Source: Frigidibacter albus
GTDB lineage: Bacteria > Pseudomonadota > Alphaproteobacteria > Rhodobacterales > Rhodobacteraceae
Length of the DNA: 64,000 nt
Direction of reading: 5' to 3'
Assembly (NCBI RefSeq): GCF_009908165.1
Contig: NZ_JAAAUC010000010.1
Span: 62,001-126,000, forward strand
Below are positions 11,901-18,963 of the stretch, in pieces. The translations under genes were made by a program, and so were the position numbers. The notes below the pieces were generated by a model, which was not told where the DNA came from, made no database searches, and worked only from the letters and a program-made list of their open reading frames with translations. How positions within the stretch are numbered: position 1 is the first letter of the stretch; each line of letters begins with the position of its first letter.

Positions 11901-11914
11901 TTGACCTGCGTCAA
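11901..11914 (-). promoter_or_regulatory. FNR-type box for ccoG
   Basis: TTGACCTGCGTCAA matches the FNR palindrome TTGAT-N4-ATCAA with one change in each half. Its centre lies 41.5 bases upstream of a predicted start at about 11866, and TACAAG at 11878-11873 (minus strand) sits at the -10 position. This is class II activator geometry for ccoGHIS. It overlaps a run of six T on the minus strand. Confidence 0.65.
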
Positions 11915-12018: not shown

Positions 12019-12076
12019 GACACGGACGTTTCCGCCACGGTCATGAGTTGCGTAATCCTCGCCGGACACCTCCGCC

Positions 12077-12090
12077 TTGACGTGGATCAA
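12077..12090. promoter_or_regulatory. Second FNR-type box in the ccoP-ccoG gap
   Basis: TTGACGTGGATCAA differs from the FNR consensus at one position. It is 176 bases upstream of the ccoG-proximal box, too far for direct class II activation of ccoG. A transcript from it on the minus strand would begin near 12042 and run through the large inverted repeat. The -10 region is poor. Confidence 0.5.
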
Positions 12091-15790: not shown

Positions 15791-15804
15791 TTGATCTGTG
15801 TCAA
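15791..15804. promoter_or_regulatory. FNR box, ccoN-proximal
   Basis: TTGATCTGTGTCAA, one mismatch to the FNR consensus. Centred 102 bases upstream of the ccoN start codon. Class II geometry would place the ccoN transcript start near 15756, leaving a leader of about 60 bases. Confidence 0.7.
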
Positions 15805-15822: not shown

Positions 15823-15836
15823 TTGATCCGCATCAA
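15823..15836. promoter_or_regulatory. FNR box, uspA-proximal (perfect palindrome)
   Basis: TTGATCCGCATCAA, an exact match to TTGAT-N4-ATCAA. Centred 74 bases upstream of the universal stress protein start; +41.5 gives a start near 15871 with TAAGAA at the -10 position (15859-15864). Confidence 0.75.
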
Positions 15837-16801: not shown

Positions 16802-17548
16802 CTAGATCAGGTAGCCGCCGTCATTGTCGTCGCCCGCTTCCGTCAGCAGCAGGTCGAAATCGGGGATCGTCACATGGCGCTTGCCCTGCAGCTCGATCAC
16901 CCCGTCCCGCTTCAGCGCCGAGATCTGGCGGCTGACGGTTTCCAGCGTCAGGCCCAGATAGTCTGCCATCGCCTCGCGGGTCAGCGGCAGGTCGAACACC
17001 ATCCGCCCCTGCGGCGAGCGGAGTTTCAGCGAGGCATCGCGCCGGGCGATGATCGCCACAAGGCTCGCGATCTTCTCGCGCGCGGTCTTGCGGCCCAGCA
17101 GCAGCATCCATTCGCGCGCCGCATCCAGCTCGTCCAGCGTCATTTCCAGCAGGCGCTGCGCGACATGCGGGGTGCGCACCATCATCTCCTCGAACGGGCG
17201 CTTGCGGAAGCAGCACATCAACAGGTCGGTGGTGGCAATCACGTTATAGGCCGCCGTCTCGCGCCCCGGGCGCCCCACGAAGTCCGACGGCAGCAGCAGC
17301 CCGACCATCTGGGTGCGCCCGTCTTCCATCGTCTGGGTCAGCGTGGCGATGCCCGACACGACCGAGGCGACGAAATCCATCTTGTCGCCGGCCCAGGTCA
17401 CCGTCTGCCCGGCCTCGAAACTGCGGTAATACTTGATCTCCTCCAGCAGCGCCAATTCGTCCGTCTCGCACCGCGCACAGACGGCGCGGTGACGGATCGG
17501 ACAGGCCCCGCATTGAAGGGAAATGTTGTGCGCGTCCTGTAGGGACAT
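16802..17548 (-). CDS. fnrL: Oxygen-sensing Crp/Fnr-family regulator FnrL
   Basis: A 248-residue Crp/Fnr regulator. Cysteines at 13, 16, 24 and 27 in an N-terminal CGACPIRHRAVCARC motif, plus C112/C113, fit an oxygen-labile 4Fe-4S cluster. A cyclic-nucleotide-like beta-roll, a dimer helix, and a helix-turn-helix with LTLETVSRQISALK follow; the E..SR pattern is that of FNR and fits the TTGAT boxes found here. The ATG at 17548 is preferred because the upstream extension would start inside an FNR box. Located beside its probable targets ccoN, usp and hemN. Confidence 0.93.
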   Translation of the reverse strand: MSLQDAHNISLQCGACPIRHRAVCARCETDELALLEEIKYYRSFEAGQTVTWAGDKMDFVASVVSGIATLTQTMEDGRTQMVGLLLPSDFVGRPGRETAAYNVIATTDLLMCCFRKRPFEEMMVRTPHVAQRLLEMTLDELDAAREWMLLLGRKTAREKIASLVAIIARRDASLKLRSPQGRMVFDLPLTREAMADYLGLTLETVSRQISALKRDGVIELQGKRHVTIPDFDLLLTEAGDDNDGGYLI

Positions 17549-17558
17549 TTGCCTGCTT

Positions 17559-17572
17559 TTGATTTGGGTCAA
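17559..17572. promoter_or_regulatory. FNR box between fnrL and hemN
   Basis: TTGATTTGGGTCAA, one mismatch to consensus. It ends 11 bases before the fnrL ATG, so it probably lies in the fnrL leader and could allow self-repression. Toward hemN it is centred about 42 bases upstream of the ATG at 17608, implying a near-leaderless hemN transcript. Confidence 0.7.
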
Positions 17573-17601
17573 GGTTCTGTCGCGCGTGTGTCCGTAACCC
17601 T

Positions 17602-18963
17602 ATGCCTATGGAAACAGAATCGCAACTCATGCGGCTCGGTCTTTTTGACGCGCGCGTCCCGCGGTATACCAGCTATCCTACCGCACCGCACTTCTCGGCG
17701 TCAGTCGGACCGGACCAGTTCACCGCCTGGATCGAGGCAATCCCTGCCGGATCCTCGATCTCGCTTTACATGCATGTGCCGTTTTGTCGGCGCCTGTGCT
17801 GGTTCTGCGCCTGTCGGACCCAAGGCACCCAATCCGACGATCCGGTGCGCGCCTATGCCGATGTGCTGCTGGCCGAGCTGGCCTTGCTGAAGGCCAAGCT
17901 GGCGCCGGGCGTGACGCTGTCGCGCCTGCATTGGGGCGGTGGCACGCCGACGCTGATGCCGGCCGACATGATGACCCGCGTGGCCGGCGCGGTGTTCGAC
18001 GCGGTGCCAATGGGCCCCGGCGCCGAGTTCTCGGTCGAGATCGACCCGAACGAGATCGACGAGGCCCGCCTTGATGCGCTCGCCGCCGCCGGCATGAACC
18101 GCGCCTCGATCGGGGTGCAGGATTTCGACCCCGCGATCCAGAAGGTCATTGGCCGCGAGCAGAGCTATGAGGAAACCAAGCGCGCCGTGGACATGATCCG
18201 CGACCGCGGCGTCGGCTCGCTGAACGCCGACATCCTCTATGGCCTGCCGCACCAGACCCCCGCCAAGATCGCGCAATCGGTGCAGATGCTGCTGTCGCTG
18301 GTCCCCGACCGGGTGGCGCTTTACGGCTATGCGCATGTGCCCTGGATGGCGCGGCGCCAGCAGATGATCCCGTCGGACACGCTTCCCACCCCCGAAGAAC
18401 GGCTGGCGCTGTTCGAAACCGCCCGCAAGCTGTTCGTCTGGGACGGCTATGACGAGATCGGCATCGACCATTTCGCGCGGCCCACGGACGGGCTGGCGCA
18501 GGCTGCCAAGGCCGGAACCCTGCGCCGCAACTTCCAGGGCTATACCGACGATCTGGCGCCGGTGCTGGTGGGGATGGGCGCCTCGTCGATCTCGCGCTTC
18601 CCGCAGGGTTTCGCTCAGAACGCCTCCTCGACGTCGGAACATACCCGCGCGATCCGGGCGGGCAAGTTCTCGACCCATCGCGGCCATGTCTTCCAGGGCG
18701 AAGACCTGCTGCGCTCGCGCATGATCGAGGCGGTGATGTGCGACTTCCGCATCGACGCGGCCGAGATGATCCGCGACTGGAACGCGAGCCCCGCACAGCT
18801 GAAAGCGATGTTCGGTGCGGCGAAGGCGGCCTTCGGCGACATGGTGGAAATCACGCCCGCGGGCCTCTTCATCCCCGAACGGGCGCGGCCGCTGACACGC
18901 ATGGTGGCGCGGGTGTTCGACGCCTACGACCTGTCGAAGTCGCAACACAGTTCGGCGATCTGA
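17602..18963 (+). CDS. hemN: Oxygen-independent coproporphyrinogen III oxidase
   Basis: A 453-residue radical SAM enzyme that makes protoporphyrinogen IX without O2. The cluster motif is CRRLCWFCAC (C62, C66, C69, with C71), preceded by VPRYTSYPTAPHF. GGGTPTLM and the HemN C-terminal domain are present. Start codons at 17602 and 17608 are both possible; 17608 matches family N-terminal length better. No clear ribosome binding site exists. The FNR box upstream suggests induction without oxygen, complementing hemF. Confidence 0.96.
   Translation: MPMETESQLMRLGLFDARVPRYTSYPTAPHFSASVGPDQFTAWIEAIPAGSSISLYMHVPFCRRLCWFCACRTQGTQSDDPVRAYADVLLAELALLKAKLAPGVTLSRLHWGGGTPTLMPADMMTRVAGAVFDAVPMGPGAEFSVEIDPNEIDEARLDALAAAGMNRASIGVQDFDPAIQKVIGREQSYEETKRAVDMIRDRGVGSLNADILYGLPHQTPAKIAQSVQMLLSLVPDRVALYGYAHVPWMARRQQMIPSDTLPTPEERLALFETARKLFVWDGYDEIGIDHFARPTDGLAQAAKAGTLRRNFQGYTDDLAPVLVGMGASSISRFPQGFAQNASSTSEHTRAIRAGKFSTHRGHVFQGEDLLRSRMIEAVMCDFRIDAAEMIRDWNASPAQLKAMFGAAKAAFGDMVEITPAGLFIPERARPLTRMVARVFDAYDLSKSQHSSAI

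Follow-up and report, generated by a model that had tools for sequence, protein, structure and literature searches.

The oxygen-sensing regulator gene fnrL and the anaerobic heme synthesis gene hemN of Frigidibacter albus are read away from each other with one FNR-type box between them, which raises the question of how a single site is wired to two genes of opposite direction. The window analyzed here is a stretch of 64,000 nucleotides (contig NZ_JAAAUC010000010.1, positions 62,001 to 126,000), to which all coordinates refer. Both genes were assigned by NCBIfam profiles, hemN by TIGR00538 (368.7 bits against a cutoff of 324.95) and fnrL by NF045989 (461.9 bits against a cutoff of 300). The features from which the question starts are as follows:

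17608..18963, plus strand: hemN, oxygen-independent coproporphyrinogen III oxidase (start set to 17608; NCBIfam profile and comparison)
16802..17548, minus strand: fnrL, oxygen-sensing CRP/FNR regulator (NCBIfam profile)
17559..17572, no strand assigned: FNR/FnrL box TTGATTTGGGTCAA, centre 17565.5, which is -42.5 if A17608 is taken as hemN +1 (consensus match and conserved spacing)

The box is located where the original prediction had put it and matches the consensus TTGAYNNNNRTCAA exactly. It had also been described as lying 11 bases from the fnrL start codon (ATG at 17548-17546 of the minus strand), and the coordinate difference is indeed 11, with 10 bases (17549-17558) in between; likewise, the hemN +1 near 17607 that had been derived from class II spacing is reproduced when the box centre is set at -41.5. 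Exact consensus sites number five in the 64-kb window against 0.06 expected, and all five fall inside about 6 kb that holds ccoN-ccoP, ccoG, uspA, fnrL, and hemN, the cco genes being presumably such, as named from their open reading frames. Two of the other exact boxes (12077-12090 and 11901-11914) lie between the presumed ccoP and ccoG, and two boxes whose starts are 32 bp apart (15791-15804 and 15823-15836) lie between ccoN and uspA. Read as class II toward the minus strand, the box at 12077-12090 gives a +1 near 12042, adjoining the ATG (12044) of a 95-aa open reading frame that overlaps the ccoG start; this fit to class II geometry is probably due to chance.

To follow the arrangement beyond this genome, 285 hemN loci were compared: a named set of 81 (the F. 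albus locus and 80 named relatives), 119 other distinct same-family loci, and 85 loci from a class-wide draw. Since the named relatives are Rhodobacteraceae, this is taken as the family and Alphaproteobacteria as the class. The further same-family loci and the class draw were picked by rank order and are thus a nonrandom sample; one class-draw locus (L208) belongs to the same family, and the other 84 belong to other families, these 84 hemN places coming from 83 genomes after some places at contig ends and weaker matches were omitted. A partial-length homologue (L002) and six duplicates were excluded before the total of 285 was reached. The loci share kinship, and tests that treat them as independent overstate their results. 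One named record, L037 (CP059262.1), is titled Exiguobacterium profundum; its hemN is 74% identical to that of F. albus and its divergent fnrL 80%, so that both genes are of the Rhodobacteraceae type and the record looks mislabelled.

The hemN start codon has to be settled before any distance to it can be used. An ATG stands in the 17608 column in 192 of 200 same-family loci. Two other candidates were rejected: position 17602, which has an ATG in 10/200 of these loci and lies inside the predicted promoter -10, and position 17629 with 9/200. The choice between 17602 and 17608, which had been left undecided, therefore goes to 17608.

Measured from this codon, the box is held at a nearly fixed distance. 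From box start to ATG, the 81 named loci have spacings of 49 nt (44 loci), 48 nt (29), 50 nt (6), 47 nt (1), and 78 nt (1), which places 80 of them at 47-50 nt. Counting in-frame ATGs at 46-51 nt from a box gives 80/81 named loci, 106/119 further same-family loci, and 34/85 class-draw loci. Within the 84 loci of other families, 33 have this 46-51 nt spacing, and other non-overlapping 6-nt windows hold at most 11. These 33 loci come from 32 genomes and 22 families, and their ATG is found anywhere from 33 to 108 nt ahead of the RYTSYP motif of the protein, never at the family-usual 54 nt; the box thus moves together with the ATG, independently of the protein. The intervening DNA up to the -10 shows 26.6% identity among same-family loci, against 26.5% expected from composition, and the spacers of the 178 loci with a linked fnrL fall into 161 clusters. 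On a quick HemN tree of the 81 named loci, built with the first 18 codons excluded, there are at least 15 changes in spacing and one departure from the 47-50 nt range.

Several loci deserve mention in their own right. The box stands 76-78 nt from the ATG in L037 and L092, where A-11, T-7, A-6, and the ATG are kept; this could be a shift from class II to class I activation, with a centre near -70. The hemN of Sphingobium TomTYG42 (L324), which belongs to the order of Sphingopyxis granuli, has a box with two mismatches at a spacing of 50 nt. The pSymA hemN of Sinorhizobium meliloti (L325) has the sequence AGAAGGA ahead of its ATG, and a search with up to two mismatches found no box there. In Bradyrhizobium, FixK2-type boxes of hemN1 and hemN2 are reported at -138/-140 from the annotated starts (PMC6710368), unlike the box-to-ATG lock of F. 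albus and its relatives. A general leaderless class of FnrL targets was also considered and rejected: in 41 genomes, box-to-ATG gaps of 33-36 nt gave 174 matches against 155 at 73-76 nt, and many of the listed matches were hemN itself.

Between the box and the ATG, the base frequencies show A-11, T-7, and A-6 to be conserved relative to the hemN start, which defines two further features:

17596..17601, plus strand: hemN -10 AACCCT (NAnnnT, at -12 to -7 of hemN; NAnnnT in 75% of 178 fnrL-linked loci)
17608, plus strand: predicted hemN transcription start, the A of the start codon, with an uncertainty of about 2 nt (class II and -10 geometry)

No second NAnnnT peak above 30% occurs between -30 and the hemN ATG, and reading the element at -12 to -7 as the -10 would put +1 at the A of the ATG. 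The element is weaker in the class draw (A-11 in 19/34 loci, T-7 in 16/34), and a consensus scan of the window for sigma-70 promoters returned none at the fnrL-hemN region. The base at -1 was discounted as evidence, since a C is common before the ATG also in loci that lack the spacing.

A transcript that starts at the A of its own AUG would have no leader and no Shine-Dalgarno (SD) sequence. The original prediction that hemN has none holds, as no SD core precedes the ATG at the F. albus locus; hemN thus has both the AUG start and the absence of an SD expected of a leaderless mRNA, although the 220 loci with box spacing were selected for an ATG, so that the AUG start is no independent test of leaderlessness. 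In these 220 loci, an SD 4-mer core lies ahead of the hemN ATG in 27, and anti-SD duplexes at -4 or below occur in 28 against 30 in shuffled sequence. The named loci offer a leadered contrast in uspA and ccoN, with SD cores and a variable box spacing: uspA has a core in 45/45 scored loci (45 of 49, those whose alignment reaches residue 1) at box spacings of 69-140 nt, and ccoN in 44/44 at 101-140 nt. Within hemN itself, an SD core is found in 25/186 same-family loci with the box spacing and in 9/14 without it, and in 2/34 and 18/47 class-draw loci, respectively, all of these counts being uncorrected for kinship; hemN therefore tends to have an SD where the box lock is absent and none where it is present. 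Nine same-family loci with a divergent fnrL have no box within 350 nt, even when up to two mismatches are allowed. Eight of the nine (L174, L175, L176, L178-L181, and L183, but not L184) carry an SD core, and the control of hemN in these eight must differ from that in boxed loci.

Alternatively, hemN may have a leader of a few nucleotides, or an additional start farther upstream, and be translated independently of an SD from an AUG that is not at the 5' end. Class II centres do vary, from 39.5 to 43.5 in Dinoroseobacter shibae (PMC5398030) and mostly from 40.5 to 43.5 in S. granuli (PMC7713065), so that +1 could fall 1-3 nt to either side of A17608. Moreover, only 34/164 loci have an SD core ahead of fnrL, a gene predicted to be leadered, which is thus also mostly without a strong SD; a missing SD alone is no proof of a leaderless message. 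However, an ATG that keeps its distance to the box and not to the protein speaks against a short leader, as do the SD cores in eight of the nine boxless loci with a linked fnrL, and this alternative is considered rather unlikely. A leaderless, class II FnrL-activated hemN mRNA with its predicted 5' end at the A of the AUG, as had been proposed from the F. albus letters, is instead supported across the 285 loci by the locked spacing, the missing SD, the SD where the box has been lost, and the position of the -10.

The opposite strand of the same DNA carries what appears to be a second promoter, consisting of the following features:

17597..17602, minus strand: fnrL -10 TAGGGT, the hemN -10 on the opposite strand shifted by one base (TAnnnT in 125/178 fnrL-linked loci)
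17620..17625, minus strand: fnrL -35 TTGCGA, in hemN codons 5-6 and 17 bp from the fnrL -10 (TTG in 153/178)
17589..17591, minus strand: predicted fnrL transcription start, placed 7 nt from the fnrL -10

The predicted fnrL leader would be about 42 nt long, with the box at about +19 to +32. Among the 178 loci, the minus-strand TAnnnT (-6 to -11 of hemN) and the TTG at a fixed 17-bp spacer stand alone: between -30 and +45, no other peak of either kind exceeds 30%. The -10 can be read on both strands, as NAnnnT on the plus strand and TAnnnT on the minus strand with an offset of one base, as is characteristic of bidirectional promoters, and the predicted hemN and fnrL starts are 18 bp apart.

If the minus-strand elements belong to fnrL, they should depend on its presence, and the base A-6 does so. 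It is found in 153/178 fnrL-linked loci, 1/8 same-family loci without a divergent fnrL, and 5/34 class-draw loci, with the box spacing kept in all; A-6 and CAA at codon 6 together are found in 144/178, 0/8, and 1/34, respectively. Because A-6 becomes rare without a divergent fnrL while the spacing stays, the spacing can be assigned to hemN and A-6 to fnrL. The proposed -35 would leave a strong silent-site signal inside the coding sequence of fnrL-linked loci. At codon 6, glutamine is encoded there by CAA against CAG at 153:1, whereas the remaining codons of the named hemN genes give 306:1094. The CAA is missing in 25/178 fnrL-linked loci, of which 14 keep two or three of the three -10 bases.

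An unrelated fnrL promoter would leave the leaderless class II hemN in place and would require that A-6 and CAA be conserved for other needs of the hemN 5' end. Early hemN codons favour A, and codon 4 glutamine is CAA in 11/11; codon 6 is glutamine in only 3/42 loci without a divergent fnrL, and all three of these are likewise CAA. Leaderless 5' ends, moreover, may require little structure. Since codon 6 is so rarely glutamine there, the loss of CAA without fnrL is mostly an amino-acid change, and A-6 provides the cleaner test. Upstream of the ATG, A-6 drops from 153/178 to 6/42 without a divergent fnrL even as the box spacing stays; codon 3 glutamine is mostly CAG (29 of 35, or CAA:CAG 6:29), against 153:1 at codon 6; and a 17-bp spacer separates the two hexamers. 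L149 has its ATG 6 nt farther from the equivalent of codon 6, and TAnnnT is again 17 bp from CAA there as read by eye. An fnrL promoter unrelated to that of hemN is accordingly thought improbable.

The preferred reading is that one FnrL box and one symmetric -10 serve two opposite promoters, and that FnrL, in activating a leaderless hemN, would thereby repress fnrL. This is judged probable, though a little less firmly in view of two cautions, namely the few codon-6 glutamines in loci without a divergent fnrL and the 11/11 CAA at codon 4. Sequence conservation backs the box, its spacing, both readings of the -10, the fnrL -35, and the weak or absent SD. Toward hemN there is no -35, and FnrL at -42.5 would take its place in class II activation; polymerase would open the -10 at 17596-17601 and start at A17608, so that the hemN mRNA would begin with its own AUG and no leader. 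Toward fnrL, TTGCGA, the 17-bp spacer, and the same -10 reversed would direct a start near 17590. In the presence of oxygen, FnrL would be inactive, hemN low, and fnrL at its basal level. Without oxygen, FnrL would draw polymerase toward hemN and shut the overlapping fnrL promoter, raising hemN and lowering fnrL in a negative feedback. Inference enters with the precise 5' ends, the sign of the self-control, and its attribution to competition between polymerases.

The self-control of fnrL that had been suggested earlier is supported in itself; its likely mechanism, an overlapping promoter with a shared -10 and a -35 in hemN codons 5-6, is new to the present analysis. A box within the fnrL leader has no activating position for fnrL, which points to repression, and FnrL should lower its own transcription. 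The opposite sign has also been reported: a table that compares Rhodobacter capsulatus with Rhodobacter sphaeroides gives FnrL a '+' on fnrL (PMC4634722), and the passage on D. shibae speaks of 'autoregulation' with no sign given (PMC5398030). The R. capsulatus data set the wild type against an fnrL deletion strain; with no fnrL left in the latter, the '+' may be trivial, and such a mutant cannot reveal the sign. Moreover, the box ends 10 nt from the fnrL ATG, which means that a class II start would fall inside the gene, and the box-to-fnrL-ATG spacing is scattered over 14-72 nt, with 5/164 loci at 47-50 nt. These spacings come from the 178 fnrL-linked loci, of which 4 had no recognisable motif and 10 no ATG; one spacing of 700 was an error of start picking. 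Positive self-control through this box is thus regarded as very improbable. As a separate observation, four Paracoccus loci (L021, L031, L043, and L060) have no fnrL ATG between the upstream stop and the CPIR motif, and the box there can be read in the fnrL frame starting at a TTG.

Repression could alternatively be a roadblock, with FnrL bound downstream of the fnrL start and no polymerase competition. Such a block would suit the position of the box, which spans about +19 to +32 in the fnrL RNA as predicted. However, in examples from Escherichia coli, bound activators left the passage of polymerase unhindered when activation was uncoupled (PMC12825309), and a roadblock appears unlikely. Promoter competition, by comparison, has a studied counterpart in that work. 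Warman and co-workers found 18 bp to be the commonest distance between the starts of E. coli bidirectional promoters (PMC12825309); CRP at -40.5 or -60.5 activated one direction, and the other was blocked (PMC12825309). Repression of the opposite direction was ascribed there mostly to polymerase competition, for which basal activity was too low (PMC12825309). Like the symmetric -10 promoters of that work, the fnrL-hemN region has one -10 readable on both strands, starts 18 bp apart (predicted here), and a CRP-family site near -41.5 of one direction. It differs in four respects: the gene that it would disfavour encodes the activator itself, the transcript that it would favour is predicted to lack a leader, the arrangement is conserved across a bacterial family, and it is known from sequence.

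The hemN side has its own precedents among class II promoters of the FNR type. The Fnr box of S. granuli hemN2, which offers the nearest external test, is centred at -42.5 from a mapped start, although a lack of oxygen induced this gene poorly (PMC7713065). In D. shibae, nirS and nosR2 share a single box, with their starts 39.5 and 41.5 bp downstream of it, and FnrL activates hemN (Dshi_0659, whose number adjoins that of fnrL, Dshi_0660) (PMC5398030). Common to these promoters and F. albus is a box that overlaps the place of the -35 ahead of a low-oxygen gene. The nirS/nosR2 box resembles that of F. albus in serving two directions and differs from it in class, since in F. albus only hemN would be under class II control, the predicted fnrL start being placed upstream of the box.

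Leaderless messages are similarly documented in the class. The acuR mRNA of R. sphaeroides is leaderless and is translated at about 7.5% of acuI (PMC3017554), and 171 leaderless mRNAs, all with AUG, are reported for S. meliloti (PMC3616915). The predicted hemN transcript shares with them a start at the A of the AUG and the lack of an SD; it differs in being predicted from comparison only and in being the message of an anaerobic enzyme gene that is fixed to an FNR box. The main texts of the transcription start papers on S. meliloti (PMC3616915) and Bradyrhizobium japonicum make no mention of hemN, and those of PMC5643017 and PMC9603517 make none of hemN or fnrL expression.

Maps of the FnrL regulon agree in part with the present assignment. 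ChIP located FnrL sites at fnrL, hemN, and hemZ in R. sphaeroides (PMC4263372) and at fnrL in R. capsulatus, where the site is printed as TTGTCCCAAATCAA (PMC4634722). This printed site is one letter off that of R. capsulatus DSM 1710 (L025), whose box lies 49 nt from the hemN ATG. The two maps have in common with F. albus a site at fnrL, located in their case by ChIP; the difference is that the R. capsulatus table lists its site under fnrL, and the text states that R. capsulatus heme genes are not directly FnrL-controlled, apart possibly from hemH (PMC4634722). Each of the three ingredients, class II FNR promoters, leaderless mRNAs, and symmetric bidirectional promoters, has been described before; a search of open-licence literature (titles, abstract openings, and passages) turned up neither a leaderless hemN nor a promoter core shared by fnrL and hemN.

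Taken over the compared loci, a conserved switch with one box and one -10 would couple the sensor gene and its anaerobic target, hemN, in most of the family, here taken as Rhodobacteraceae, such that activating a leaderless hemN would at the same time repress fnrL. Beyond the family, a leaderless class II hemN would occur in 22 other families of the class draw, with an SD present more often where the box is absent. This joint reading is favoured, if narrowly. The hemN start codon is corrected to 17608, and the comparison suggests that the R. capsulatus ChIP site listed under fnrL belongs to hemN as well. The gene also offers a ready test of how a leaderless message is translated without oxygen. 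If true, the shared promoter would explain why a synonymous codon is nearly frozen across a bacterial family, and it would provide a concrete wiring by which an oxygen sensor limits itself while switching on anaerobic heme synthesis.
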